Source: a virus. Taken from it: DNA of 27,045 bases. Position numbers and translations under genes: made by a program. Positions within the stretch are counted from its first letter, which is position 1. Each line of letters begins with the position of its first letter. Location: positions 1 through 27,045 of the IMG/VR virus record IMGVR_UViG_3300031539_000263; one strand, 5' to 3'. The notes under the pieces are model-generated. The model searched no databases. It saw only the letters and a program-made list of their open reading frames with translations, and was not told where the DNA came from. This document shows positions 32-22,248 of the stretch, piece after piece.

Positions 32-787
32 ATGGCTAAGCCTAAGAAAGAAGTAGTAGCAGCACCTTCGGGCGTTGTGTTAGACGAGCGCCCTGATTGG
101 GTTACTGAAACGGAACGAGGAAGCGAGGCTATTAGCATCGACGATCTTGTTATTCCGCGAATTGAACTCATTCAGGACCTCAGCCCTCAAAGAAAGGCCA
201 ATAAGGACGAGTACATTGAGGGTGCCGAGACAGGAATGGCTTTCAACACAGTTACCAAAGAGCTATTCGATGCCACGATTGGGTTAAGTGTCATACCCGT
301 GTTCTTCCGTAAGGAATACGTCATTTGGCGCGATCGTGAAATGGCAGGCGGCGGGTTCCATGGTGCATTTAACACGGAACTTGAAGCTGTCAGGAAGTTG
401 AAGAGTGGCGAAATTGAGAGTCCAGAGCAATGTGCAGTCGTTGAGACTGATCAGCAGTTTGCCCTGATTCTTAATGGAGCAGGTAAGTGGGAAGAGGCGG
501 TGTTCAGCATGAACATCTCCAAGCTTAAGGCCAGTCGGCAATGGAATTCGTTCATTAAAATCCGAGGCGGAGACCGGTTCAGCAGCGTGTATCAGCTGAA
601 ATCGATCGAAGTTGAAGGTGGTAAGGGCGAATACCAGAACTGGACAGTCAAGGCTCTGGGTTATGCACCAGAGGCGGCGTTCCTACAAGCAGAAGCCGTA
701 TACGAGGCAATCGTAAGCGGACACAAAGATGTATCCCGTGATACTGATAATAATAGCGGGGAAGATGTTGCCGACACTGTCGGTTAA
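32..787 (+). CDS. Uncharacterised early phage protein, possible ssDNA-binding protein
   Basis: A 251-residue soluble protein with no signal peptide or membrane segment. The N-terminus is polar (residues 1-35). The core contains IPRIELIQDLSP, an EGAETGMAFNTVT stretch and VIPVFFRKEYVIWRD. I recognise this arrangement from phage proteins that lie next to replication genes, some of them labelled ssDNA-binding, but I see no diagnostic catalytic motif. The C-terminal 25 residues are acidic and probably disordered, as in phage SSBs. The start is supported by AGAGG at 18-22, nine bases before ATG. A hairpin terminator follows directly, so this gene can be expressed separately, and more abundantly, than the replication operon behind it. 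An abundant SSB would fit, but that is inference; a recombination or annealing protein is an alternative. Confidence 0.55.
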   Translation: MAKPKKEVVAAPSGVVLDERPDWVTETERGSEAISIDDLVIPRIELIQDLSPQRKANKDEYIEGAETGMAFNTVTKELFDATIGLSVIPVFFRKEYVIWRDREMAGGGFHGAFNTELEAVRKLKSGEIESPEQCAVVETDQQFALILNGAGKWEEAVFSMNISKLKASRQWNSFIKIRGGDRFSSVYQLKSIEVEGGKGEYQNWTVKALGYAPEAAFLQAEAVYEAIVSGHKDVSRDTDNNSGEDVADTVG

Positions 788-792
788 CGGAT

Positions 793-820
793 TGGGGGGC
801 TTAACGGCCCCCCAGTTTTT
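793..820 (+). terminator. Rho-independent terminator after the first gene
   Basis: An 8-bp GC-rich stem (TGGGGGGC at 793-800 with GCCCCCCA at 807-814), a 6-base loop and a T run at 816-820. It lies six bases after the stop of the first gene and before the replication operon. The ATG at 821 sits directly after the T run and has no ribosome-binding site, which argues against it as the next gene's start. Confidence 0.85.
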
Positions 821-865
821 ATGACAATATATTCACAATCAGAATACATATCGAGGTTTTTAGTT

Positions 866-1162
866 ATGGGATACGATAAAACCAACACTGGCGTTCTGTT
901 TAAGAACGACACAGCAACCGAAGCTAATCGCCGCCCTCAAATGCAGGGTTCAATGGAAACGTGCTGCCCGGATTGTGGCACAGTAACGGCATGGTGGTTA
1001 AGTGCATGGACCAAGATAGCCGGTCCTCAAGCCCTGAACCCCGGTGCCCGATTCCAATCACTATCGTTCGTACTTAAGGATGATCAAGGTATAGCCAAGG
1101 ATAAGACGGATCAAGTAGCCGCCTCGCAAAATCAGGATTACGAAGACGACATACCATTTTAA
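866..1162 (+). CDS. Small SSB-like protein with C-terminal DDIPF tail
   Basis: Starting at ATG 866 gives 98 residues. An in-frame ATG at 821 would add 15 residues but abuts a terminator and has no ribosome-binding site, whereas GAGG at 853-856 precedes ATG 866. The pattern TGVLFKND, a short spacer, then WLSAW and FQSLSF matches a small phage family often found near replication genes. The protein ends in DYEDDIPF, the acidic tip typical of bacterial and phage SSBs that recruits partner proteins. This copy also carries CCPDCG between the two conserved blocks, half of a possible zinc knuckle. The stop overlaps the polymerase start (TAATG), so it is translated with the polymerase. An accessory ssDNA-binding or polymerase-interacting role is inferred. 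Confidence 0.65.
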   Translation: MGYDKTNTGVLFKNDTATEANRRPQMQGSMETCCPDCGTVTAWWLSAWTKIAGPQALNPGARFQSLSFVLKDDQGIAKDKTDQVAASQNQDYEDDIPF

Positions 1163-3027
1163 TGTTTGATCTGGGGAGATATAAGTATGTGGGACTTGAC
1201 ACCGAAACAACCGGACTCAAATATCCAAAAGATAAAGCTTTTGCAGTCTCAGTTTACGCGCCAAGCGGCGAAACCGCGTCGTTCGATTTCAGATCTGAGG
1301 GAACAGATCGCTTTGCAGAATGGGTCCGTCATTACAATGGCACCTTCGTGTGTCACAACGCGTCATTTGATTGTAGGATGCTCACGTCTTCCGGCGTGGC
1401 AATACCACCTAGCAAGTTCGATTGCACCGCAGTTAGAGCTACACTTATCAATGAACACGAAGCCACTATCTTTCCGTGGACGCGTAAGCCTGGTAATTTT
1501 ACGCTTGATGATCTATGTAGTAAATATCTGGGAATGCGCAAAACTGAGGACGTTTACATTCGTCTTGCCGAGCTATTCGGTGGTTTGGCGACCCGCAATG
1601 TTCAGGCTCCGAATCTACAACATGCGCCGTGGGACTTAGTTAAGGAATACCAAGATCGAGACGCAATGTTAGCGTTGAAGTTGTGGGAGTGGCAGGAAGA
1701 TGAGATTACGCGACAGGGCATACGGGAGATTTGCGAGTTTGAGCGTAGGCTCATCCCCATTGTTATACAGACAGAAATGGCCGGTGTCCGGGTGGATCTT
1801 GAGGCCGCAGAGAAAGCGCAAAAACCACTTACCCGAATCCTCAAGCGACAGCAGACCAAACTCAACGACCTCGCAGGAAGGAATCTCAATGTCAATTCCC
1901 CCAAGCAGATTAAGGAGATGTTCCAGCCAGAACAGAAGGAAGGGGATTGGTACATTGGCGGATACCAAATCGGTACTACCCCAAGTGGGGGGCCTTCTCT
2001 CGCTGGCGAAATTCTCAAGGGCATGCCGGACGAACGAGCACAACTCATTGGCGAGATTCGTTCTATCATCAAGACCAGAGACACATTCCTCGGCAAACAC
2101 ATTCTTGAACATTCACACAATGGTCGTGTGTACCCCACCATTAACCAGACTAAAGGCGAAGATGGTGGTACTGGTACTGGGAGATTCAGTTATGTTGATC
2201 CCGCTCTCCAGCAAATACCGGCTCGGAATAAACAAGTGGCGGCTCAAGTTAAGCCGTGCTTTCTCCCTGATGAAGGGCAAGTATGGTTGGACTCTGACCT
2301 CGCGTCCTTCGAAGTCCGTATCTTCGCACACCTAGTTGCCGCCTTTGATAACCGAATTGCTCAGCGGTATGCCGCTAACCCTTCATTGGACTTCCATCAA
2401 ATGGTAGCCGATATGACGGGTTTGGTGCGTAATGCGACCAGAGCAGGTGAAGCCAATGCTAAGCAGCTGAACCTAAGCATGATCTTTACCCAAGGCAACG
2501 GGGCGACAGCAGACAAGATGGGGATGGATTGGGAATGGAACAAGTTCTTACCGTCCGGTGCAATAGATGAAGAGGAGAATTACATACGATACAAGAAGGC
2601 TGGTCCTGCTGCCATGGCTATAATCGATCGGTACCACTTGGAATTACCGGGTGTCCAGGCATTAGCCAAGCAATGTAAGAAGATAGTGGCAGAACATGGC
2701 TATATTAAAACTGCAGAGGGTCGCAAACTGCGATTCCCTAAAGGCTATAAAAATTATAAGGCTAGCGGGCTGGTGATTCAAGCCACCGCTGCAGATGAAA
2801 ATAAGCGAAATTGGATGTTGATTGATGAAGTCCTCGAAGAGGGACGTTTGATTCTTAACACACATGATAGTTACGGGCTTTCACTGCCTGAGGATTATCA
2901 TTCCGAATGGGCGCGGGTTAAGAACGCAGTTGAACGTGATACACTTAGAGTGCCACTGTTGTTGGATTTCAATGGAGTTGGAGCCAACTGGTGGGAAGCC
3001 TTACAAGGGGATGGAAATGCACATTAG
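1162..3027 (+). CDS. dpoZ: Family A DNA polymerase with 3'-5' exonuclease (DpoZ-like)
   Basis: A 621-residue phage replicative polymerase. The DEDDy exonuclease comes first: Exo I DTETTG (D13, E15), Exo II CHNASFD (N66, D70), Exo III YQDRD (Y163, D167). The polymerase domain follows: TGTGRFSYVDP with QQIP (337-353), motif A DLASFEVR (D379, E384, R386), motif B around K434 (AKQLNLSMIF) and motif C THDS (H568, D569). There is no 5' nuclease domain. Motifs A and C keep both metal-binding aspartates. Motif B lacks the usual Arg four residues before the Lys, the usual Phe is Leu438 and the usual Tyr is Phe442; motif C has Ser instead of Glu. The start overlaps the upstream stop by one base with no clear ribosome-binding site, so translation is probably coupled. 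The dpoZ name is an inference: family A polymerases next to purZ are known to favour 2-aminoadenine over adenine. The family A polymerase call itself is very secure. Confidence 0.9.
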   Translation: MFDLGRYKYVGLDTETTGLKYPKDKAFAVSVYAPSGETASFDFRSEGTDRFAEWVRHYNGTFVCHNASFDCRMLTSSGVAIPPSKFDCTAVRATLINEHEATIFPWTRKPGNFTLDDLCSKYLGMRKTEDVYIRLAELFGGLATRNVQAPNLQHAPWDLVKEYQDRDAMLALKLWEWQEDEITRQGIREICEFERRLIPIVIQTEMAGVRVDLEAAEKAQKPLTRILKRQQTKLNDLAGRNLNVNSPKQIKEMFQPEQKEGDWYIGGYQIGTTPSGGPSLAGEILKGMPDERAQLIGEIRSIIKTRDTFLGKHILEHSHNGRVYPTINQTKGEDGGTGTGRFSYVDPALQQIPARNKQVAAQVKPCFLPDEGQVWLDSDLASFEVRIFAHLVAAFDNRIAQRYAANPSLDFHQMVADMTGLVRNATRAGEANAKQLNLSMIFTQGNGATADKMGMDWEWNKFLPSGAIDEEENYIRYKKAGPAAMAIIDRYHLELPGVQALAKQCKKIVAEHGYIKTAEGRKLRFPKGYKNYKASGLVIQATAADENKRNWMLIDEVLEEGRLILNTHDSYGLSLPEDYHSEWARVKNAVERDTLRVPLLLDFNGVGANWWEALQGDGNAH

Positions 3028-5302
3028 TTTACAGGCAGTTAAAGACATTAGCTGCATTGAAGATCGAGACGATAAGGTATTGGCCGCCGCAAGGATGTAC
3101 GCCGAGGCCGGAATCGCAATAGTACCAATACGGAAGGGGGAGAAGATATTGCCCCCATCCAGCACAGGGATTAACTACTCATCTGCTAGTAAAAATATAA
3201 AGACAGTGGAGAAATGGTATGGACCCAACGGTAAATATAGGGGCTTTAATATCGGGATTGCATGTGGTGGAGGGGGGTGTTTTGCCCTTGATATCGACGC
3301 CCATGAGGAGAAAAATGGGTATGAAGCTCTGCAGACTTTTGTCGACGAATGGGGTGAGCCAGTGGCTCCAATGCAATCCACTCCTTCTGGCGGAAGACAT
3401 TATCTATTTGAATGGGAAGCCAACTGTGTTTCATCCACAGACCGCCTTGCGATTGGAATTGATACCAGAGGCGGCGCAGTACCAGACAAGAACAGGGATA
3501 CTGCTTATGCAAGCCACATTGTTGCATGGCCCAGCACAACTGATCAGGGTGAATATACGTGGGATAAGGGCGGTGAAGCGATTCATCCGCCTGAGTGGGT
3601 GGTGTCTAAGCTTGGGGTATCGTGGGGAGGTGCTATTGGCCGTGGTAATGAAAATGTGGGCAAAGGTGATACCGAGCGCCAATATACCGAAATAGAACTA
3701 GCAGGGATTGTTAATGTAATCAACCCCGGAGAGTGCAGCTATGAACAGTGGCTCCAAGTTGGAATGGCAATTAGTACGCAGATGCCCGATAAGCGGGGAT
3801 TGGAAATGTGGCACAGTTGGTCCCAACGAGGCAAGACACACGAACCCGACGAATGCCAAATTAGGTGGACCGGCTTTGATCCTGCAGGGCCGATTAGAGT
3901 TGGGACCCTTATTCATATTGCCAAACGATTCGGATTTGACCCGAAGACTCAAGACGCTGCAACAGCAGGGGACTTCGAAAATATCATTGATGAGCTTAAC
4001 TCGTACTGTGCTATGACCCTGATAGGGGGCAAGCCGCGTGTGGCGTTTAGAGACCCATCTTCCGGCAGTATCAACCTTATGACCAAGGACGACTTCCTGT
4101 TCTGGTTCAGTAATCAAATGATAGTGACCAGCAACGCTGAGGGTAAGGTATTATACCAATCCAAAGCCCGGATTTGGTTGGCGGATGAACGACGCAACGT
4201 AGCCTCACGGGGCATTGGGTTCATGCCGGATGGCGAATTCATTAGTAATGGGTATATTAACTTATGGCGCGGCTGGAGTATACAACCAGAGGAAGGTAAA
4301 TGGGACTTGTACGACAGGCACGTGCATGATATAATATGTGACGGGGACGATGCGCTGTACACTTTCGTCCTTGATTGGATAGCACAGATGATCCAGAACC
4401 CAATGGAGCTACCGGGCACGGCAATTGTAATGTCGGGGATCGAGGGCTGCGGCAAGGGAACATTAGCATATTTCATAGGACAGGCATTGGGCCAGCATTA
4501 TGCGCACATCATTAACGCCCGCCACTTGACCGGCAACTTCAACTCCCATCTAATGGACAAGTTATTAGTGTTCGCAGATGAAGTAACATTCGGCGGCGAT
4601 CGTCGGGTGGCAGGGACGCTTAAGGGCATTGTGACCGAGCGTGAAATGATCAGTGAGAAGAAAGGCTACGAGGCACACCCATATGAGAACAGGACACGCC
4701 TTATTGTTGCGAGTAATGAAGATTGGTTCATCCCCGCAGGACCTGAGTCCCGCAGATGGCTTGTACTTAGAGTTAGTGGAGACAGAGCAAACCAACGGGA
4801 CTACTTCGATGCAATTTACGATCAGATGGAGGAAGGTGGTACTGCTGCAATGCTGTATGACCTTAGAAATCGTGAAATCACATCAAATTTAAAGGAAGCA
4901 CCCAAGACCCACGCGCTAATGCAGCAACGCGCAATATATACGGTCACCGGGGACCCCATAGTAAGGTGGTGGGTGGAACAGGTCCAACTAGAGGCACTGC
5001 CCGTTCCGTCAATGTCCACCGTTGAGACAGTTGAGGACATAGAATCTTGGCCAGAGAAATGTGAGCGCAAGGCATTATACATGGCATTCAGTGAGTGGGC
5101 CGATGCCAAACGATACAATCCCAATCAGATCAAATCCGCCGGGTTCTTCTATAAGAAGATGCGGGAGTTCGGGTTGTCGGATACAAGAGAGACAGTAGGC
5201 AACTCACGCGGTTACGTGTGGAGCATACCGAGTTTGAGCAAGTGTAAGTTAATAGCTACAACCAAGACGGGTGAGGAATTCGATAATGACGATGAAAGTT
5301 GA
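3017..5302 (+). CDS. AEP primase (PrimPol-type) fused to SF3-type helicase
   Basis: 761 residues from ATG 3017, chosen because AAGGGG (3005-3010) is six bases upstream; the frame stays open further upstream inside the polymerase gene. Domain 1 (about 25-200) is a primase-polymerase domain: IVPIRKG, CFALDID (metal-binding D92 and D94), TPSGGRHYLFE (H128) and a late IDTRGG...HIVAWPS block. Domain 2 (about 220-305) resembles the PriCT_2 primase C-terminal region (YEQWLQVGMAI, W-rich). Domain 3 (about 440-600) is an ATPase: Walker A GIEGCGKGT (K480), Walker B LLVFADE (521-522), sensor Asn in VASNED and arginines at PESRR. It should lay primers and unwind DNA at the fork. It overlaps the polymerase stop by 11 bases and purZ by 17. 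In cyanophage S-2L a related PrimPol is the replicase; here a family A polymerase is also present. Confidence 0.88.
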   Translation: MHISLQAVKDISCIEDRDDKVLAAARMYAEAGIAIVPIRKGEKILPPSSTGINYSSASKNIKTVEKWYGPNGKYRGFNIGIACGGGGCFALDIDAHEEKNGYEALQTFVDEWGEPVAPMQSTPSGGRHYLFEWEANCVSSTDRLAIGIDTRGGAVPDKNRDTAYASHIVAWPSTTDQGEYTWDKGGEAIHPPEWVVSKLGVSWGGAIGRGNENVGKGDTERQYTEIELAGIVNVINPGECSYEQWLQVGMAISTQMPDKRGLEMWHSWSQRGKTHEPDECQIRWTGFDPAGPIRVGTLIHIAKRFGFDPKTQDAATAGDFENIIDELNSYCAMTLIGGKPRVAFRDPSSGSINLMTKDDFLFWFSNQMIVTSNAEGKVLYQSKARIWLADERRNVASRGIGFMPDGEFISNGYINLWRGWSIQPEEGKWDLYDRHVHDIICDGDDALYTFVLDWIAQMIQNPMELPGTAIVMSGIEGCGKGTLAYFIGQALGQHYAHIINARHLTGNFNSHLMDKLLVFADEVTFGGDRRVAGTLKGIVTEREMISEKKGYEAHPYENRTRLIVASNEDWFIPAGPESRRWLVLRVSGDRANQRDYFDAIYDQMEEGGTAAMLYDLRNREITSNLKEAPKTHALMQQRAIYTVTGDPIVRWWVEQVQLEALPVPSMSTVETVEDIESWPEKCERKALYMAFSEWADAKRYNPNQIKSAGFFYKKMREFGLSDTRETVGNSRGYVWSIPSLSKCKLIATTKTGEEFDNDDES

Positions 5303-6329
5303 TTTGGTGGTCGACCTACAGTTTGGGTCTACTGGCAAGGGGTTATTGTGCGGGTATCTGGCAGAGAAGATACAATATGACGTGGTGGTCAATTGCAACA
5401 TGCCGAATGCAGGTCATACTTATATAGATAGTAAGGGGATGAAGATGATATTCAAAGTCCTCCCCTCCGGATTGGTATCTCCCAATCTTAAACACCTTAT
5501 GATCGGTCCGGGCGCGGTAATCAGTGAGACGCAGTTGGCGCTTGAAATACGGGCGGCACGGGCAGCTGGTTACGAAATCGAGAACAAGATACGCATACAT
5601 CCCAATTGTACCATCCTGCGCCATGAACACACAATGATGGAACAGGAACTGTTCAAATCGATCGCCAGTACCGCGCAAGGGTCAGCCTGTGCAGTAATCG
5701 ATAAAATGTCCAGGACCGCAGGCAATATGCCGGTGGCAGGCAAGATGATCGGTTTCATGTATGAGCAATCCGTAGTTACCCATGACCAGTGGGCCACTAT
5801 CCTCGATGATGCGTCCCAGATCATGGTGGAGGGCGCACAGGGCCACTCCCTGTCCATCGACGGGCAGTTCTACCCCTATACCACGTCCCGGTCATGTGCA
5901 CCGTCGTCGTTCTACACCGGAGCGGGTGTGCCAATGCAGTACCACCGCAATGTATATGGTACGGTTAGGACCTACCCAATCCGTGTCGGCAACACAAGTG
6001 AAGGCCACAGTGGTCCTTGCTACGACGACCAGAAGGAAATCCCGTGGTCCGATATCGGGCAGGAGCCGGAATTGACCACAGTCACCAAGCGCCAACGTCG
6101 GCTATTCACCTATTCACATGACCAGATCGCAGAAGCGTGTAAGGTGTGCCGACCAGATGCAATATTCCTGAATTTCGCCAATTACTGCGATCAAGTCACG
6201 TTACAGAGAATAACAGCTGATATATTGGCGATAGGCAGAAATCAGAACCTTTCCGGCCAGATAATCAGATGGCTTGGTAGAGGCCCAACATTCCATGACG
6301 TGGAGAGGATAGGCAATGCCCTCATGTAA
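5286..6329 (+). CDS. purZ: PurZ, dGMP-specific adenylosuccinate synthetase homologue (2-aminoadenine synthesis)
   Basis: 347 residues, starting at ATG 5286 with GAGGA eight bases upstream. It belongs to the adenylosuccinate synthetase fold: a P-loop-like FGSTGKGLL (14-21), NAGHT (41-45, catalytic His44), EGAQG with IDGQFYPYTTS in mid-protein, and TVRTYPIRVGN. Cellular PurA has GDEGKGK at the first site, where the Asp is the catalytic base; here it reads GSTGKGL. Loss of that Asp and the short length (PurA is about 430 residues) are hallmarks of phage PurZ. PurZ joins aspartate to dGMP; host PurB then releases fumarate, giving 2-aminoadenine deoxynucleotide (dZMP). The gene overlaps the primase by 17 bases and mazZ by 14. 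Host-type PurA is unlikely given the Ser and the neighbours. Confidence 0.95.
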   Translation: MTMKVDLVVDLQFGSTGKGLLCGYLAEKIQYDVVVNCNMPNAGHTYIDSKGMKMIFKVLPSGLVSPNLKHLMIGPGAVISETQLALEIRAARAAGYEIENKIRIHPNCTILRHEHTMMEQELFKSIASTAQGSACAVIDKMSRTAGNMPVAGKMIGFMYEQSVVTHDQWATILDDASQIMVEGAQGHSLSIDGQFYPYTTSRSCAPSSFYTGAGVPMQYHRNVYGTVRTYPIRVGNTSEGHSGPCYDDQKEIPWSDIGQEPELTTVTKRQRRLFTYSHDQIAEACKVCRPDAIFLNFANYCDQVTLQRITADILAIGRNQNLSGQIIRWLGRGPTFHDVERIGNALM

Positions 6330-6636
6330 CACGGACTATTTGATAAGGCAGGTGGTTGATTGGGCTGATGAAGCCATTGGCAAGGATCGCCATCCCGACT
6401 CAACCTTCGCAAAGTTAATGATAGAGGAAATACCGGAGTTAGCCAATGCATACAACAAGAACGGGACCTTGGACCCTCAAGAAGTGGGTGACGTGTTCAT
6501 CCTTCTTTTTGATCTGTGTTACATGTGCGGCGTTTGCCCCACCGATGCTGTTCTTTCTAAGCTTGCTGTTAACAGAGAAAGAAAATGGCAACGAAATCGA
6601 TTAGGGCTGATGGAGCATATTGATGGAGATACATGA
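6316..6636 (+). CDS. mazZ: MazZ-like MazG-fold dNTP pyrophosphatase
   Basis: 106 residues, all-alpha, with the MazG-type Mg2+ site: EEIPE (E37, E38, E41) followed by EVGD (E56, D59), then LAVNRERKWQ near the C-terminus as in the DUF550 dATP/dGTP pyrophosphohydrolase group. In cyanophage S-2L, MazZ converts (d)GTP to (d)GMP and so feeds PurZ. Position between purZ and an HD phosphohydrolase, with 14-base overlaps on both sides, supports that role. The start ATG 6316 has a purine-rich GGAGAGGA at 6302-6309. The assignment as dGTP-specific is inferred from context; a general MazG house-cleaning enzyme cannot be excluded from sequence alone. Confidence 0.85.
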   Translation: MPSCNTDYLIRQVVDWADEAIGKDRHPDSTFAKLMIEEIPELANAYNKNGTLDPQEVGDVFILLFDLCYMCGVCPTDAVLSKLAVNRERKWQRNRLGLMEHIDGDT

Positions 6637-7120
6637 CATACTTAGGGCGGCAGATGTTACGCGATGGCACATCGTCCGTACGATTAAGGATCAGTCTGTC
6701 GCAGAACATAGTTTCAATGTGTGCATGATTGCACGAGCTATAGCAAAAGAGGCGAATATTGCAGATGAAGATATCACAAAGGCTGCGCTTGCTCATGACC
6801 TCGATGAAGTACTGTTGGGTGATATACCTACGGTTATCAAGGAGCGAGTACGAGATGGAGGTGTTAACATCAACGATTTATATCAGAAGGTTACCGGACG
6901 GACGCTTACATCCAACATGCAGGATGTTCTCCGGGTCTCTGATCGACTTGAGGCGTATTGGTGGATTAAAACGAACGGTCTTGGAGAACATGCAAAACTA
7001 GTAGCACGGGACTGTTGCGTTCGGTACGAGAACACATTTACAGATGAAATAGACCAACAGGTGATGGTAGCAGCCCGCATAGTAGAGAGGAAGATATTCT
7101 GTGGAACTCATACACTCTGA
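6623..7120 (+). CDS. datZ: DatZ-like HD-domain dATP triphosphohydrolase
   Basis: 165 residues from ATG 6623 (TGGAG seven bases upstream; the TTG one codon earlier is less likely). This is a YfbR-type HD-domain enzyme: RWHIVRT (R14, W15, H16), VAEHSFNV (H29), ALAHDLDE (H58, D59) and VSDRLEAYWW (D107), which together give the expected metal-site residues. In S-2L the equivalent, DatZ, strips triphosphate from dATP and so keeps adenine out of the phage genome. Adjacent purZ and mazZ genes with overlapping ends make that function much more likely than the 5'-deoxynucleotidase activity of cellular YfbR. The substrate is inferred. Confidence 0.88.
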   Translation: MEIHDILRAADVTRWHIVRTIKDQSVAEHSFNVCMIARAIAKEANIADEDITKAALAHDLDEVLLGDIPTVIKERVRDGGVNINDLYQKVTGRTLTSNMQDVLRVSDRLEAYWWIKTNGLGEHAKLVARDCCVRYENTFTDEIDQQVMVAARIVERKIFCGTHTL

Positions 7121-7511
7121 AAATCAATGGCGCGGGATGTGGTTGTGGCGATTAGCTGATTGGCATTGGACTCCAATTGAGAACCACGTAGCCGACCCCG
7201 GAATCCCGGATATTAACGGATGCAAGGGAGGGAAGGAAGTTTGGATTGAACTAAAGATGGAACCCAAACTGCGTAGTACCCAATATGCCTGGATAAAGAA
7301 GCGCATCCAAGTAAGCGGGAAAGTTTGGATAGCATGGCTCGACCTGAACAGTAGCCAAATCTATTTAATATCAGGCGAAGCGGCAGTAAGGGCCAAATTA
7401 CATAGGACCCAATCTAAAGGCGATTGGGCGTTCCACTGTTCGGTAGTAATGCCCTACGATCTTGATGGGGCTTTCTGGGTTAGGATAAAGGAGATATTAA
7501 ATGAAACATAG
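7101..7511 (+). CDS. PD-(D/E)xK nuclease (VRR-NUC-like / resolvase-like)
   Basis: 136 residues. The catalytic core is DPGIPDIN (D38) followed by VWIELKM (E50, K52), the classic PD...ExK layout, with a later STQYAWIKK that matches the conserved Gln helix of VRR-NUC-type nucleases. The start is GTG 7101 with GAGGAAG upstream, and it overlaps datZ by 20 bases. Small stand-alone nucleases of this type in phage replication operons cut branched or flap DNA, or help degrade host DNA. Which of these applies is not visible. If the phage DNA carries Z, the enzyme must either act on Z-DNA or discriminate against it. Confidence 0.8.
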   Translation: MELIHSENQWRGMWLWRLADWHWTPIENHVADPGIPDINGCKGGKEVWIELKMEPKLRSTQYAWIKKRIQVSGKVWIAWLDLNSSQIYLISGEAAVRAKLHRTQSKGDWAFHCSVVMPYDLDGAFWVRIKEILNET

Positions 7512-7917
7512 TGAAGTATGCGAAGAATATAATGACAGTCAAGTAAGTTCGGAATTACCATTCAAATGCATGTGCCCGCCGGGATGGGGATGGAAAATTA
7601 AAAACGAAGAGCCGGACGTGGTGCAAGCTCTACGGCATAATAAGGGTAAACCCCAATTGACCTATGTGCTGTCCGCACCAGCGGCTTGTGTGCAAATAGC
7701 CACTGTGATGGAAGTGGGGAGGCAGAAGTATGAATTGGACAACTGGAAGAAGGGATTTGACAAGAAGGAAGGTTTGGACTCTGTTCTACGTCACATTATG
7801 GCTCACCTGAATGGGCACGTCTATGACCCCGAAACCGAGTTACGGCACCTGTCCTTGGCGTTGGCTGGGTTACTTATGTATGTGGATAATGAGGTATTAG
7901 ACCGAAACCACGACTAA
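7501..7917 (+). CDS. Second dNTP diphosphohydrolase-like protein (DUF5664 / dATP/dGTP diphosphohydrolase N-terminal type)
   Basis: 138 residues, with AAGGAG just upstream of ATG 7501 and an 11-base overlap with the nuclease gene. Residues 1-40 are variable with several Cys and CPPGWGW. The conserved part begins at RHNKGKPQL (45-53), continues with GRQKYELDNWKKG (73-85), LRHIMAHLNG (96-105) and DPETELRHLSLALAGL (109-124). This matches a family I know as DUF5664, now linked to dATP/dGTP diphosphohydrolase; its helices carry acidic and His residues in a MazG-like arrangement. It is the last gene of the operon, and the terminator hairpin begins at its stop codon. It may share or divide nucleotide duties with MazZ. 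Family call good, exact substrate unknown. Confidence 0.72.
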   Translation: MKHSEVCEEYNDSQVSSELPFKCMCPPGWGWKIKNEEPDVVQALRHNKGKPQLTYVLSAPAACVQIATVMEVGRQKYELDNWKKGFDKKEGLDSVLRHIMAHLNGHVYDPETELRHLSLALAGLLMYVDNEVLDRNHD

Positions 7918-7943
7918 AAAAGACCGGGGGTATAAGCCCCCGG
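7916..7943 (-). terminator. Rho-independent terminator at the convergence of the two operons
   Basis: Stem CCGGGGG (7924-7930) with CCCCCGG (7937-7943), 6-base loop. Read on the minus strand the stem is followed by TC and six Ts (7921-7916), a proper terminator for the late genes. Read on the plus strand there is no T run after the stem, so it would stop the early operon only weakly. Confidence 0.85.
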
Positions 7944-7968
7944 CCAAATCCCTAGGCGCGGGAGGAAG

Positions 7969-9016: not shown

Positions 9017-12000
9017 TTATAATTCTGGCTGCGGCATCGTGCCTGATGTTTCAGCGCCCTCTCTAGGCTGCTTGAACACGTACTCCGGAAATTTATTTAC
9101 TAACATAGGGTCAATCGCATCGCTATTATATTTCTCTACAGCGAGTTCGTTTAACAGTTGACCTGCGCGTTCCATTTCAAACGGCAATTTAAGCTTAATG
9201 ACTTTATTTTCATATAGCCGCTTACCGCTGCGCGTGTATTGATCAGTAGGCACCCGTACTGTTATTTCATCTTTGCCCGCTAAGTACTCATGCAAGAATG
9301 TTTGGCGTGTCATTTTATCGGCTGATTGTATAGTCTCAGATATGCGTTGTGCTGCCAATGAGTTTGGTCCATGAATTTGATCGTCACTGGTATAATTTGA
9401 ATACTCACCGTCTATAAATCGATCCATGAACTCTTTACGGTTCTTGCCAATAGCTATCTTATAAGCAGTATATACCCAACCCTCATCATCCAACGCAGAA
9501 AGGTTCAAACTAACAGTAAGCCCATTGGGGGAAGGTAGTGATATTGTATGTCCCGGTTCGGGTATAGGAACCTGAGCATACAGTATGGCTGAAGTAGCTG
9601 GGTCTACTTTGGCCTCATTAACCTCAATCGGAACCAAAGAACGCCACAATGGGGTACCACCCTTGACTTGTACCGTACCATCCCATAGTATTTTAGGGGC
9701 TACATCTCTAGAGGTAAGGGGTAATGCATTCCACAACTGATTAGTCATACGTTGCCAAGCCATAGTCCCAAACGAACTCTCCGGATTCATGGCCGCAGTA
9801 CGCACCACAGGATCTGTTGCTTCTCTTACGTCGCGTGTTACGTTGGGTATGACATAGGAACCGACACTGGCAGCTAATATAGAAGCACCGTACTTAAGGT
9901 TATTATCCTTAACCGCTGTTAAAAATTGTGATACTGTGTTAATTGACGATCTGTCAATCGCCATATCCGCAACTTCAAATATACCGGATGCAACAACACT
10001 AGTCATTTCCTCTGGATTTTCAGCATAAGAGAACGCATCAAGACCAGTGGCCATTATGTTAAGTGTCATAGCCCACGGGTCAACGCGATCTAACTTAACC
10101 CACGTATCGCCAATTCTAACGGAGTTATTGCGAATACCCAAGGCTTCACGGGTCCGATTCACGTCCCAAGATGGGTGACCTTCACCGGCTATCTTGCCAT
10201 CCTCATATAGCATATCCACGTACGCCCACAGGCCAGCGGCGATAGTCAATCGGGTAATAGCATCAGCCCGTTCAGTTGGGGTACCCTTAGCTATAGCTTT
10301 ATATGTTGGGCCACTTATTCCTGCATGTTGACCGGCGTAACCCATAATGTTCATAGGGGATCGCACAAATGGCATAAGGGTTTGGAAGAATATAGAAGAA
10401 TTCTGTAGATTAGATAAAGAAGTAGCCAACCCAGCCCATAGGGAACCATAAACGTCCTCAGGGTTATTGGTAAACGTCATACGTTGGGCCTGTAAGTTAG
10501 CCGCGTTGACCATACCCTCACTTGGGTTATTAACCCAATAGTCCATCCGCTGGTTGAAGTCCCAATCATCAGGAACACGGAAACCCCGTCCATCAGTCGG
10601 CTGCGCTAATGTTCTAGCTTTAACCTCTGCTTGGCCGTACAAGTGCCCATTAAATGCCCATGTTTTAAATACAGCATCTGACGCTTCCAACAATCGAACC
10701 GGTGAAGTTATTACCTTACCGCCAAAATATTCCGGCACAGCATGGGGGTCATATCGCAAGCCTGCTTCAACGGACACCTTGCCGCCATAAGCTATGGGAC
10801 TATCCGGTATTATGCCCCCTTCCATGATTATAGCAAACTTACTGAGCGCATCACCAGTTGACCCAAACATGCCCATAGTAGAGTTTTTCCACCCGGCCAA
10901 AGTCATTCGCTGGGCTTCCTCCTCAGGGGCTACCTTAAGTCTCATTGATGGTATCTTACGAATGCCCCTTCTAGCGTAAAATTCCATGTTGGTAACGGCT
11001 ATTTTGCCTGCAGCAACAAATATTTGCTCATTGATAGCTACACCAAGGTTGCCTATATTGTTAGCTACATGCGTACGCCATGACTTCAACATGAAGTTGT
11101 AACGTATTGCCATCAATTCCTGGATGCTCTTTTGGAGCGTATCCTTACCGACACGATCACTGACTGACGCAGCTGAACCGTCACCCTCAGCCACTAATTT
11201 TACATGTTGCAATACCCCTCTATTGCCAGACATATCCCTAACATAGTTACGAATCATTTCAGCTGCATGCATTGGGTTCATGCCATCAACGTAACCTTGG
11301 AATTGACTAAATTGCCCCACAGGGCCAGTGGAAACACCGGATAGCAATGCCTCAGTAGCAGAAAACCGTGATCGCATAATGGTCCACATGACAATTTCAT
11401 CAGGTGTGATATCGTTACGGGATTTAATGTCATTAGCAAATCGATGCATTTGCAGTGACTGATCCTCAAGCATGTTGAAGAGAATGCCAACTTCTGTATT
11501 AGACCAATAACGGCTGATGCCGCCTTTAACTGTTGAACCCCCTGCCTCAGTTGTTATACGTTTGCGCTTCTTGTGTAAGTAATTTTCCAGTGCTACACGC
11601 TCAACCTCATCCTCGGCTGAAATGTGGGGCATCCTATAGCCTTTAGTACGCTTGCGGGTTGCTATTTCCTTTGCTATCTTGCCCACAGCGGTCGACATTG
11701 ACGACATAAAGAAATGTTTAGGATTAGTTGAATGATCAGGTGCAACTGGAACCCAACTAGTATCAGTTCTTGTACCGGGGCGATTCGACCTATTCCGGAT
11801 TCTAGCTAAAATAGACATTGTGCGGGTCGGCATAGGTGTAGCTGTCGATTTATCCATAGCCATGCGATCGGCTTGCCTATCAACCTGTTTCGATTTGATA
11901 TCAACCTGTTGGGCTATCTTTTCATCGGCATCAAGCTGTGCTCTCTGTTGTACCTGTTCAAGCGCACGTTGACTTTGTATTTGGTTTTTAGCATTGTCAT

Positions 12001-13498
12001 ACTGACGGTTCAACATCTTCTCATAAACAGTAGACTCATAATCAGGTGTGCGCCCGCGTTCCAAATACCAATCATCCGCCTCTTCAATAGCCTGTGCCCA
12101 AGCCGCCTCTTCTTCGTGAGGTTCCAATGGTACCTTGTCCTTAGGCACTTTCTCAGATAAGATACGGGCTTGGGCCTTAACTAGACGCTCTTGGTATTCC
12201 GGCGATCCGTAAGGAGGCTCTTGATCACGCATTACATAATAATCATCAACCTCGGCCACGGCTTTATTAATTGCCTCTGTATTACGGGTTACGGGCTTAC
12301 GCCCCTTCACCGGTTTGGTAAGTGATCCAGCCCGTACTTTGGTAATAACGCCATCAACAGCGCGAACTTCAATCCAGCCATGACCCTTGCCAGCTACAGT
12401 AAAGATGCCCTCACGACCTTCAACACTGACCTTGGTGTCAGGCACTGTTAAATCGGTGCGACTCTCATCATTGGCAATCATATCCTCTGGGTCGACTTCC
12501 CGACGTGCGGGCAAGTGACTATTACGACCGCCACGCCCCTTCCATTTAGCGGCAGCCAATCCAAAGGCACCACCTAATGTCATGCCGAAGATTGCACCCG
12601 CAGCAGCACCGGTCGCACCCGTCGTCGCGACACGCCCATAGTCCATCTCGTCACGCGTCCCGGCACTCTTCTCTGCGCTCTGTCGCGTCGCTTCCACTCC
12701 GGCGGATACTAGGCCCCCCTCGGACGCGCCAGCGGCAGCGAGGCCACTCCCGGCCTGTATCAATCTCTTTGATCCCTCGGTCTTAATAGAATCCTTGAGC
12801 TTTGATTTGGCGAACTGAGTCATAACTTTACCGGCAGTCCATTTGCCGACACCCAACCCAATATATGTAGTAGGGTCCGCCGCAATGCCGCCAATCGCCC
12901 GCCAGAATGAATCACTATTCCACTCGGTCTGGTCATATATGTCAAGCATCTTAGTTAAGGCTTGTGCGTACTCAGTACCGTATTTTGCTGGGTTATATAG
13001 ACCGAGTTTAATAGTGTTAGGTATATTCCAATTGAAATCAGACACCATATCTAATCCCATCTCTGATAATTCTTGGTCTGTACCGTCGAAATCTTCACCG
13101 TTATAGATTTTGAACATAGAACGGGCAGAATCCAACCATTCTGGGTTAGTTGTGAGGTCGGACTCTTGCATTAAAGTAGTATCTGCTTCTTCTACCCTTT
13201 TATCCTCTGTGGCTTCCCCTTTCAATTGGGCCAAAGTCTTAGCTTCATAGTCATTGGGCTGGGCATCGCCCTTTAGTTGCATAGCCTTATATTCTTCCTG
13301 CGCTTCGGGCACCATCAACAGTTCTGGGTTACTGGACCCGGCAAATACAGTAGCGGATTCGGTGGCACTTAAATTATCCCTTGCTCCGGTCGCAGTTTCC
13401 CATTCCTTTTGCTCGTCACTCTCAGGCATAATCTGGCTAGCTTGGCGCTTGTCTTTATCGTCGGCTACTTGTATCCGATAGGACTTAAAATCTTTCAT
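9017..13498 (-). CDS. Large internal virion / DNA ejection protein (T7 gp16-like position)
   Basis: 1,493 residues, the largest gene in the window. It follows two other ejection-protein candidates and precedes lysis, the place of gp16 in T7-like phages. The N-terminal region is acidic. Residues about 245-320 are Ala/Gly-rich and membrane-prone (GATGAAAGAIFGMTLGGAF). Residues about 405-510 hold an imperfect duplication of a roughly 40-residue unit. A Gln-rich coiled coil follows (about 515-565). The C-terminal half is helical and polar. I do not see a lytic transglycosylase EGL or peptidase motif, unlike the N-terminus of T7 gp16. It probably forms part of the trans-envelope channel during DNA entry. 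It overlaps the gene before it by four bases (ATGA). Confidence 0.75.
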   Translation of the reverse strand: MKDFKSYRIQVADDKDKRQASQIMPESDEQKEWETATGARDNLSATESATVFAGSSNPELLMVPEAQEEYKAMQLKGDAQPNDYEAKTLAQLKGEATEDKRVEEADTTLMQESDLTTNPEWLDSARSMFKIYNGEDFDGTDQELSEMGLDMVSDFNWNIPNTIKLGLYNPAKYGTEYAQALTKMLDIYDQTEWNSDSFWRAIGGIAADPTTYIGLGVGKWTAGKVMTQFAKSKLKDSIKTEGSKRLIQAGSGLAAAGASEGGLVSAGVEATRQSAEKSAGTRDEMDYGRVATTGATGAAAGAIFGMTLGGAFGLAAAKWKGRGGRNSHLPARREVDPEDMIANDESRTDLTVPDTKVSVEGREGIFTVAGKGHGWIEVRAVDGVITKVRAGSLTKPVKGRKPVTRNTEAINKAVAEVDDYYVMRDQEPPYGSPEYQERLVKAQARILSEKVPKDKVPLEPHEEEAAWAQAIEEADDWYLERGRTPDYESTVYEKMLNRQYDNAKNQIQSQRALEQVQQRAQLDADEKIAQQVDIKSKQVDRQADRMAMDKSTATPMPTRTMSILARIRNRSNRPGTRTDTSWVPVAPDHSTNPKHFFMSSMSTAVGKIAKEIATRKRTKGYRMPHISAEDEVERVALENYLHKKRKRITTEAGGSTVKGGISRYWSNTEVGILFNMLEDQSLQMHRFANDIKSRNDITPDEIVMWTIMRSRFSATEALLSGVSTGPVGQFSQFQGYVDGMNPMHAAEMIRNYVRDMSGNRGVLQHVKLVAEGDGSAASVSDRVGKDTLQKSIQELMAIRYNFMLKSWRTHVANNIGNLGVAINEQIFVAAGKIAVTNMEFYARRGIRKIPSMRLKVAPEEEAQRMTLAGWKNSTMGMFGSTGDALSKFAIIMEGGIIPDSPIAYGGKVSVEAGLRYDPHAVPEYFGGKVITSPVRLLEASDAVFKTWAFNGHLYGQAEVKARTLAQPTDGRGFRVPDDWDFNQRMDYWVNNPSEGMVNAANLQAQRMTFTNNPEDVYGSLWAGLATSLSNLQNSSIFFQTLMPFVRSPMNIMGYAGQHAGISGPTYKAIAKGTPTERADAITRLTIAAGLWAYVDMLYEDGKIAGEGHPSWDVNRTREALGIRNNSVRIGDTWVKLDRVDPWAMTLNIMATGLDAFSYAENPEEMTSVVASGIFEVADMAIDRSSINTVSQFLTAVKDNNLKYGASILAASVGSYVIPNVTRDVREATDPVVRTAAMNPESSFGTMAWQRMTNQLWNALPLTSRDVAPKILWDGTVQVKGGTPLWRSLVPIEVNEAKVDPATSAILYAQVPIPEPGHTISLPSPNGLTVSLNLSALDDEGWVYTAYKIAIGKNRKEFMDRFIDGEYSNYTSDDQIHGPNSLAAQRISETIQSADKMTRQTFLHEYLAGKDEITVRVPTDQYTRSGKRLYENKVIKLKLPFEMERAGQLLNELAVEKYNSDAIDPMLVNKFPEYVFKQPREGAETSGTMPQPEL

Positions 13499-19826: not shown

Positions 19827-21341
19827 TCAACTCCAAGACCCGGTTCCTATTATCGGGAAAGTAAGTCCGGTTACTAGATCCATTACTGGGCTGACCCCTT
19901 CGTTAACTGGGATATCATGCACAAGATAAGTTCCCTCATATACCCTAACATTTTTAATCACGCCTTTCCATCGATTAGCAATAACCCCGTTAGTTGCCCA
20001 TGCTCCAATAATAAAATCTTCAGGTGCGCCAAAGGCTCCTCGATTAGGAAGGCTTGTTGGTGGAATAATTGAATTAACTCTTACATTTGGATTCCCTGCT
20101 GCGGCAGGCCAATCGAACCGGTTAAAGTATTCAACATCTAGTGCTCTGCCCACTGGAACCACATCGTTAATGCCTCCAATTACTGGGAAGAAACAGCGTA
20201 AATTGCCACCTAAAAACTGCTGCCATTGGAAACCAAAATTAGGTCCAAAGCCGGGACCGAATGTCCCCACTGCACATTGCGCGGCAGTAGCATCTGTTTG
20301 TTTACTATCCCATTCTATAATAGTAGCTATCGCGCTACTGGGCTGGTAATCGGTTACGCGGATAGAACTGTAAGGATTTTCAGATGTGTATTCTTTAGGC
20401 TCAGGAGTAACTACCGACGCTAAACCAGCTTGGAAAATAGGACCTATCAAAGCAGCAGCAGTTTCATTCCAATGTGACCCTCCCATTGGGAATTTATATC
20501 CGGGAAGCATCTTCTTATCACCGGGGGGTGAACCGATATCATTTAGTAGTCCTGCAACATCAACCACAGTCCATGTTAACGGACCTGCTACGAGGTTTAT
20601 CCAAGCATTCAAAGCGTCAATCAACGTCTCAACAGCAACTTGGTTAGTATTCCAAGGAGCCGCAGGGGGATTGTTCCAGTTGTCATCATACGCATCACCG
20701 AGATAGTGTAGAGTAGGAATAACCAGAGCCACTCCCGCATTGACACATAACTTAGATATATCAAGAAGGTCTTCTTTCATTTTAGATAGACATTGGGTAG
20801 TGTCTAACGAACTGGGACCAAGATATTGATATATATCATTCCCTCCCCACGTTATAGCTATAGCCTTACACCCAGTGGCAATATCGCCGGGGATACGATC
20901 GATAAGAGGAGCAGCTGCCCCCGGTTTAGTAAGTCTAGAATTACCTAATGCATTGTTCTGTATAGGGGCAGGAATAGTGAAGTTTGGCCACTGGGTGGTA
21001 AGCAAAGTAATAGGGAAAGAAGAATTGCTATCCCCGTCAGCAACATAAGATACGCCAGCTGGCGGACCAAAAACACCATCAAAAGTGTCCCAAAAATAAA
21101 ACCACATATCAGGCAATGCACCAGCAGGAACACCTACATCAATTAATGCTGCGTATAATGCATCATTAAGAGTGCCGGTTTTGCCTAACGTGCCGACTAG
21201 AAAAGCCCGTTTAGCATCTGATACTATACCTGTAGACGACCCACTTAAATCACGCCAATATTCTAGCAACATATCAGGAACAGCGCCAGTATAACCATGC
21301 ACTGATACTAACTTTTCGAACATTAAATCATTTATATGCAC
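19827..21341 (-). CDS. Tail fibre/spike protein with SGNH-hydrolase (esterase) domain
   Basis: 504 residues. The N-terminal 90 contain two related short units ending GAVPDMLLEYW and GALPDMWFYFW, a type seen at the attachment end of phage tail proteins. Residues about 95-310 form an SGNH/GDSL hydrolase: GDSNSS (S105), Gly133, WGGND (166-169) and GGSHWN (H290). The usual Asp three residues before the His is Gly287. The C-terminal 180 residues are beta-rich and may bind glycan. Such proteins remove acetyl groups from host surface polysaccharide. GTG start with CGGAG upstream. Confidence 0.8.
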   Translation of the reverse strand: MHINDLMFEKLVSVHGYTGAVPDMLLEYWRDLSGSSTGIVSDAKRAFLVGTLGKTGTLNDALYAALIDVGVPAGALPDMWFYFWDTFDGVFGPPAGVSYVADGDSNSSFPITLLTTQWPNFTIPAPIQNNALGNSRLTKPGAAAPLIDRIPGDIATGCKAIAITWGGNDIYQYLGPSSLDTTQCLSKMKEDLLDISKLCVNAGVALVIPTLHYLGDAYDDNWNNPPAAPWNTNQVAVETLIDALNAWINLVAGPLTWTVVDVAGLLNDIGSPPGDKKMLPGYKFPMGGSHWNETAAALIGPIFQAGLASVVTPEPKEYTSENPYSSIRVTDYQPSSAIATIIEWDSKQTDATAAQCAVGTFGPGFGPNFGFQWQQFLGGNLRCFFPVIGGINDVVPVGRALDVEYFNRFDWPAAAGNPNVRVNSIIPPTSLPNRGAFGAPEDFIIGAWATNGVIANRWKGVIKNVRVYEGTYLVHDIPVNEGVSPVMDLVTGLTFPIIGTGSWS

Positions 21342-21360: not shown

Positions 21361-21801
21361 TTAATTAAATTTTGCACTTTCCAAAAATACTTCAGTTAAT
21401 TGCGTTATCGTTTCATCAATAAAATGAGTGGCCCGATTACGACCCCCATTAGCTGATACAAAATTTCTACCGACGATAATAGCAATGTCGGTAACAGCTA
21501 TTGATAAATTATCCTCATCAATTATAACCGTTTCACGGGCTGCGTTGATGTAATGGCCGCGAACTATCCAATCAACAGCATTATCTTTCTGGCCCCACCC
21601 GGAAATTATTGCATTCCTTAGTAGCCTAATAGTACCTACACATGATTGAACTTTATGAGGCTCAACACTAGCACCTATATAAAGCTTTATAGTAGTAGCA
21701 CCTACATTAGTATTGTTCTGAGTCACAACTTGGTTTTTAACCCAAGTGCGGAACATGTACCTGCCCCAAGGGGGAACAATTTTAAAAGAGGTTAATGGCA
21801 T
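21361..21801 (-). CDS. Uncharacterised structural-region protein, paralogue 1
   Basis: 146 residues, clearly related to the gene just upstream: both share PWGR near the N-terminus, then IKLYIGA/LKLYMGA, SCVGTIR/TCVGTMR, GHYINA/GHWRDA, and THFIDETITQL/THFLDETMNQL near the end. There are no membrane segments. No known function. Only three bases separate it from its paralogue and no strong ribosome-binding site is visible, so translation is probably coupled. Position next to the SGNH tail protein suggests a tail or head-surface component. Confidence 0.75.
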   Translation of the reverse strand: MPLTSFKIVPPWGRYMFRTWVKNQVVTQNNTNVGATTIKLYIGASVEPHKVQSCVGTIRLLRNAIISGWGQKDNAVDWIVRGHYINAARETVIIDEDNLSIAVTDIAIIVGRNFVSANGGRNRATHFIDETITQLTEVFLESAKFN

Positions 21802-21804
21802 GGC

Positions 21805-22248
21805 TTAATTATAGTGTGAAGCTTCATTGAACACATTGATCAACTGATTCATCGTTTCATCAAGAAAATGAGTCGAATTCACGCGGCCATTGGCAATGCT
21901 GAGAAAACCAAACGACACTAAAAAAGCAATAGTATCGTCGTCAAAGGCCGAGGTATCAGTAGCTACAACAATGTTGGCATTACTCGCATCACGCCAATGA
22001 CCACTAATGATAAGATTTTGACCGTCAACATGTTGAGGCCACTCTGTAAGAACCATGCTCTGTAATTTTCGCATAGTACCTACACACGTTTGAGGGCGTA
22101 ATGGTGCTGCGTTTGGCCCTGTATTAGCGCCCATGTAAAGTTTCAGGGTATTAAGGACCGGGGTTGGGGAAATTGAGATAACAGCATCTTTCTTGCCACC
22201 ATTCCTTAGTAAAGTGCGGCCCCAAGGGGCGAAAAATTTTGTTGCCAT
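21805..22248 (-). CDS. Uncharacterised structural-region protein, paralogue 2
   Basis: 147 residues, tandem paralogue of the following gene (same conserved blocks, TCVGTMR and THFLDETMNQL). GAGG eight bases upstream of ATG 22248. Beta-rich in the middle, helical at the C-terminus. Two copies of different sequence may form a hetero-oligomer or represent a duplicated adapter or decoration protein. Function not recognised. Confidence 0.75.
   Translation of the reverse strand: MATKFFAPWGRTLLRNGGKKDAVISISPTPVLNTLKLYMGANTGPNAAPLRPQTCVGTMRKLQSMVLTEWPQHVDGQNLIISGHWRDASNANIVVATDTSAFDDDTIAFLVSFGFLSIANGRVNSTHFLDETMNQLINVFNEASHYN

Follow-up and report, generated by a model that had tools for sequence, protein, structure and literature searches.

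Does the virus behind IMG/VR virus record IMGVR_UViG_3300031539_000263 replace the adenine of its genome with 2-aminoadenine (Z)? The window, i.e. the whole stretch analysed, covers positions 1 to 27,045 of this linear record of 27,045 bases; an earlier note, made from the letters of the sequence, had proposed an apparently complete Z-genome operon of a podovirus. We conclude with high confidence that the operon serves replication and Z-base synthesis in a podovirus resembling phiVC8 and ZP6, in which genomic adenine is replaced by 2-aminoadenine.

Identity, order and placement of the genes

The identity of the genes, their intactness, order, residue conservation and phylogenetic placement are established. 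The PurZ, MazZ, DatZ and DpoZ assignments proposed in the earlier note were borne out by curated models and the nearest solved structures, by residue checks, and by synteny and the position of PurZ in a tree (Table 1). In the residue checks, positions named in structural papers were compared by alignment; residue roles for the four proteins were taken from PMC8342488, PMC8065100 and PMC8599892.

DpoZ scored 788 bits against the NCBI curated model NF038380 (cut-off 500) and PurZ scored 309.5 bits against NF038379 (cut-off 300); chance origin is therefore excluded. The nearest solved structure for DpoZ is phiVC8 DpoZ (7pbk, 722 bits; runner-up 102 bits). Exonuclease residues D26, E28 and D85 are kept, as are S583 and the marks of the phiVC8-like DpoZ clade (L455, F459 and G548), while M165 is replaced by Ala.

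For PurZ the nearest solved structure is phiVC8 PurZ (6fm1). The protein falls in the adenylosuccinate synthetase family (PF00709), as would be expected also of a cellular-type PurA using inosine monophosphate; still, that explanation has a negligible chance of being right. PurA models scored far under their own cut-offs, Ser (in GSTGKG) occupies the position of the catalytic Asp13 of E. coli PurA, and the PurZ-specific TTVT loop is kept together with the dGMP-pocket residues, the R240/V241 pair (S-2L numbering) and a phiVC8-like Asn at the ATP-site position. The tree points the same way. Among its 99 rows, the window pairs with a metagenomic locus (L011; SH-aLRT, Shimodaira-Hasegawa-like approximate likelihood ratio test, support 92) within a 55-row podoviral clade that includes phiVC8, ZP6 and BUCT555 (SH-aLRT 96); the clustering with cellular PurA that the earlier note had named as evidence to the contrary was not observed. 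The two outside rows, one E. coli PurA and one Arthrobacter-phage PurZ0, fall outside the clade on long branches, which makes the rooting rough, though the podoviral placement of the window is independent of them. The window PurZ is less than 50% identical to the PurZ of cultured phages.

A gene annotated as adenylosuccinate synthetase in the 168 kb Flavobacterium phage MaF61 (L092:3968-5311) also carries Ser in place of Asp13, and its TTLT loop resembles that of PurZ; no other Z genes are annotated in the 9 kb stretch of MaF61 examined.

MazZ (nearest solved structure S-2L MazZ, 7ody) keeps all its metal ligands (E34, E35, E38, E50 and D53) along with R83, W85 and the guanine-contacting residues I56 and D60; E35, E38, E50, D53, I56, D60 and R83 are invariant in a 13-row alignment. 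It belongs to the S-2L type (MazZ-1) rather than the phiVC8 type (MazZ-2), beside phiVC8-like polymerase, primase and PurZ, a mix found in BUCT555 as well. DatZ, nearest to S-2L DatZ (6zpa), keeps the HD metal ligands H34, H66, D67 and D119, the selectivity residues W20 and I22 and the phosphate-binding R19 and K81.

Three close relatives of the window (L029, L032 and L043) that keep DpoZ, PurZ and MazZ-1 have no datZ (0/3 whole records; controls 4/4), and its place is taken by a small protein of membrane type, which in L032 is a DUF7220 protein. Z-phages without DatZ may exist.

The genes form a single operon of intact, overlapping plus-strand genes at 821-7917, and all members named in the earlier note are present. 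That note had begun the operon at 866, a position that falls within the single-strand DNA-binding (SSB)-like open reading frame (ORF); the polymerase begins at 1162. Its overlaps of 1 to 20 bases agree with those measured: 1 nt for SSB/DpoZ (at 1162), 17 or 11 nt for DpoZ/primase (start 3011 or 3017, the latter with a better spaced ribosome site), 17 nt for primase/PurZ (PurZ ATG 5286 with a GAGG-type ribosome site upstream), 14 nt for PurZ/MazZ, 17 or 14 nt for MazZ/DatZ (TTG 6620 or ATG 6623), 20 nt for DatZ/nuclease and 11 nt for nuclease/DUF5664. The predicted podoviral origin is supported as well, by minus-strand matches to tail, major head and portal/head-tail adaptor families and by synteny of the operon with those of the podoviruses phiVC8 and ZP6.

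Table 1. Features of the window and of related loci, with coordinates and main evidence
Feature	Coordinates	Strand	Evidence
Pam3 gp34-like protein (PF23977)	32..787	+	Pfam E 6e-64; 38-49% identity to relatives' genes
Single-strand DNA-binding-like protein	821..1162	+	phrog_7364 E 1e-6; 36% to ZP6 gp26
DpoZ, family A DNA polymerase with 3'-5' exonuclease domain, phiVC8-like clade	1162..3027	+	NF038380; 7pbk; residues
Primase-polymerase / primase-helicase (Prim-Pol, PriCT-2, DUF5906)	3011..5302	+	Pfam; 42% to ZP6 and phiVC8 genes
PurZ, N6-succino-2-amino-2'-deoxyadenylate synthetase (dGMP + Asp)	5286..6329	+	NF038379; 6fm1; residues; tree
MazZ-1 (S-2L/DUF550 type), predicted dGTP to dGMP pyrophosphohydrolase	6316..6636	+	PF04447; 7ody; residues
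DatZ, HD-domain putative dATP triphosphohydrolase	6620..7120 (TTG 6620 or ATG 6623)	+	phrog_7076 E 2e-29; 6zpa; residues
Small nuclease-like protein	7101..7511	+	39% to BUCT555 gene, 30% to ZP6 'nuclease'; phrog_2165
Stand-alone DUF5664 (dGTP_diPhyd_N), putative dATP/dGTP pyrophosphohydrolase	7501..7917	+	PF18909 E 1e-19, 70.7 bits, cut-off 27
Intergenic GC-rich hairpin	7918..7968 (terminator-like site 7922-7945)		Strong hairpin separating convergent replication and structural modules
Fourth mazZ-slot protein family	L052:9056-9358, L061:9106-9477, L066:5389-5664, L153:3390-3707, L156:9008-9256		Between purZ and datZ

An operon so arranged has precedents in phiVC8, ZP6 and BUCT555. Vibrio phage phiVC8 (Enhodamvirus) shares the order SSB, DpoZ, primase, PurZ, MazZ, DatZ and nuclease-like gene followed by convergent structural genes, with identities to the window of 54% (DpoZ), 42% (primase), 46% (PurZ) and 43% (DatZ); it differs in having MazZ-2, with no detectable similarity to the window MazZ-1, a DUF6378-type gene in the place of DUF5664 and small extra genes between some members. 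Alteromonas phage ZP6 (Mareflavirus) has the same compact order of overlapping genes (DpoZ 50%, PurZ 44%), but its MazZ is of the MazZ-2 type and DUF6378 ends the module; no structural-gene match to the window was found among the genes compared. Stenotrophomonas phage BUCT555 shares the gene order and a MazZ of the MazZ-1/DUF550 type (46% identity), whereas a DUF6378-type gene replaces DUF5664 and the primase is only 26% identical. Acinetobacter phage SH-Ab 15497 likewise has DpoZ, PurZ, DatZ, DUF550 (MazZ-1) and DUF5664; however, the last two are fused into one 385-aa protein, the locus lacks this primase type and DpoZ identity is 42%. In cyanophage S-2L, the source of the nearest solved relatives of the window MazZ and DatZ, purZ, mazZ and datZ stand in identical order, but the phage has no DpoZ and uses PrimPol (PMC8065100). 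The Pam3 gp34-like gene is an upstream neighbour kept in phiVC8, ZP6, BUCT555 and SH-Ab 15497, and the nuclease-like gene is a conserved neighbour of datZ with counterparts in BUCT555 and ZP6. What is less ordinary in the window is the S-2L-type MazZ (as in BUCT555) together with a stand-alone DUF5664, which in several relatives occurs instead of MazZ. With the window, the small known set of podoviral Z-genome modules gains one that is intact and compact, yet distant from those of cultured phages, and that offers new polymerase and hydrolase variants.

Probable Z in the virion DNA

The individual catalytic reactions, like the presence of Z in the virion, are inferred here from studied homologues (PMC8342488, PMC8065100, PMC8599892 and PMC12884076). 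MazZ, and probably DUF5664, would hydrolyse dGTP to dGMP, which PurZ with ATP would join to aspartate to give N6-succino-2-amino-2'-deoxyadenylate (dSMP); host adenylosuccinate lyase and kinases would convert dSMP to the triphosphate dZTP. DatZ would remove dATP as deoxyadenosine, and DUF5664 may also convert dATP to dAMP. Primed by the primase-helicase, DpoZ would favour dZTP over dATP opposite T, so that genomic adenine would become 2-aminoadenine and many restriction enzymes would be blocked. It is very likely that the virion DNA contains Z.

Several points weigh against this reading. Z content is unreadable from a DNA sequence. The record is probably a genome fragment, not a complete genome (close relatives are ~36-41 kb in size versus 27 kb). 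In MazZ, R94 is replaced by Glu and A92 by Leu; in DatZ, P79 is replaced by Val, as also in phiVC8, and the phosphate-binding K116 by Arg, a conservative change unseen in the relatives compared. Among A-containing restriction sites, GATC is mildly under-represented (0.74 of expected), which is uninformative about Z.

The earlier note held that PurZ, MazZ and DatZ suffice for the replacement, as in S-2L. They do achieve some replacement, though not a full one: in E. coli the S-2L triad replaced only ~12% of plasmid adenines (22.7% after normalisation; PMC8342488). This result, with the DatZ K116 and MazZ R94 substitutions, is what speaks for Z being made only partly, with dATP incompletely removed or the enzymes weak, and for virion DNA of mixed A and Z. 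We consider such an outcome improbable, as the window has a polymerase of the Z-preferring DpoZ type with its signature residues kept, two candidate pool enzymes in addition to DatZ, and all genes intact.

DUF5664 and the dGTP-to-dGMP step

The 'second dNTP hydrolase-like gene' of the earlier note turned out to be DUF5664. In its AlphaFold2 model the helical core has a predicted local distance difference test score (pLDDT) >95, and G73, K76, Y77, H98, D109 and H116 are invariant or nearly so in the alignment. DUF5664 in PurZ phages was described as 'often fused' (PMC12884076), whereas the window copy stands alone. The SH-Ab 15497 fusion was reported to hydrolyse dATP and dGTP, and a stand-alone homologue of phage Wayne was shown to do so; a distant stand-alone DUF5664 cuts dATP, dUTP and dGTP, with kcat ~tenfold higher on dATP than on dGTP (PMC12884076). 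Because this distant homologue cuts both dATP and dGTP, DUF5664 could serve dGMP supply as well as dATP removal.

Does DUF5664 stand in for MazZ in other Z-phages? Two scans, each yielding at most 80 loci and with many contigs common to both, supplied the metagenomic PurZ loci surveyed, which were annotated with profiles built from reference phages; duplicates were removed, and the window and reference phages were counted in. The 53 podoviral-type loci comprise 9 with MazZ and DUF5664, 35 with MazZ without DUF5664, 9 with DUF5664 without MazZ and none lacking both (Fisher p ~1e-5, computed by hand on loci that are non-independent). MazZ-less podoviral loci fall into about three groups on the tree, corresponding to about three independent losses; a test of co-loss on independent branches, with 3 pairs on starred branches, was too small to reach significance. 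Profile searches of ten related MazZ-less metagenomic whole records (one duplicate) found neither MazZ-1 (0/10; controls 6/6) nor MazZ-2 (0/10; controls 4/4), and all ten carry a stand-alone DUF5664. PF04447 and the single window MazZ used as probes of the MazZ-less records gave no match either, in searches that had no working positive control. Furthermore, in three siphovirus-type loci (L077, L150 and L154) DUF5664 occupies the mazZ slot itself, between purZ and datZ.

The most economical interpretation of these patterns is that DUF5664 is able to take the place of MazZ. We lean towards the view that stand-alone DUF5664 is an interchangeable substitute for MazZ in Z-phages: MazZ would have been lost in several lineages, which retained or acquired DUF5664, with the window representing the condition of having both. 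No description of such a replacement was found in the open-access papers searched.

Alternatively, DUF5664 could be unrelated to Z, a general enzyme of the dNTP/dUTP pool or of host takeover at the end of the operon, which would be compatible with Z in the virion DNA. Many phages outside the PurZ set have relatives of it, the copy in the window clusters with that of Vibrio phage D69 (support 87/84), dUTP is also a substrate of the best-studied stand-alone enzyme (PMC12884076), and phiVC8, ZP6 and BUCT555 carry an unrelated DUF6378-type gene in its place. This alternative deserves some credence, but we hold it to be doubtful given the co-occurrence counts and losses above, the ten records that lack both MazZ types and all have DUF5664, its position in the mazZ slot and its fusion to a MazZ domain in SH-Ab 15497.

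The DUF6378-type genes at the DUF5664 place are located at L003:16676-16945 (phiVC8), L002:17470-17763 (ZP6) and L004:16210-16569 (BUCT555). A Pfam match to DUF6378 was shown for the ZP6 protein, and the DUF6378-type gene is conserved in many Z-podoviruses.

Two further proposals about the window DUF5664 were dropped. It is not claimed to be a MazG-fold protein, as it has no profile similarity to MazZ-1 and its model no fold match in the PDB. Nor is it taken as split from a fusion of the SH-Ab type: the tree of these short proteins is poorly resolved and places the window copy next to that of D69, so that separate acquisition is at least as likely.

Only five surveyed loci (L052, L061, L066, L153 and L156) lack MazZ-1, MazZ-2 and DUF5664 alike, and they have in common a different small protein in the mazZ slot. 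Three members of this family scanned against Pfam gave no significant match; weak, non-significant fold matches of a model, several MazG proteins among them, provide a lead only. The dGTP-to-dGMP step seems to be always covered; the families that do so, all small and lacking detectable sequence similarity to one another, number at least three (MazZ-1, MazZ-2 and DUF5664), with this one perhaps a fourth. A rule open to testing follows from the survey: some enzyme making dGMP from dGTP seems to be retained in every Z-phage, and which one is interchangeable. The rule bears on the parts needed to make Z-DNA in cells.

Layout and other features of the window

The plus strand carries nine genes from 32 to 7917; the minus strand, from 7969 onward, has holin, endolysin-like, tail, head and portal-type genes. 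The T-run of the hairpin at 7922-7945 is oriented toward the minus-strand transcript. Counts of promoters and terminators in the window did not exceed those in shuffled sequence, with the exception of this strong inter-module hairpin.

Three places on the structural side have ORFs with no PHROG match. Two neighbouring minus-strand ORFs, 21361-21801 (146 aa) and 21805-22248 (147 aa), look like tandem paralogues, with common PWGR and QxCVGT motifs. Adjoining a tail gene, the ORF at 19827-21341 (504 aa) has SGNH-hydrolase-like motifs recognised by eye (DGDSN and GGND), and its product is possibly a receptor-binding protein or a surface-polysaccharide esterase. Finally, the ORF at 9017-13498 (1493 aa) is flanked by the lysis genes on one side and by further internal-protein-like ORFs on the other, a position which suggests a large ejected virion protein.

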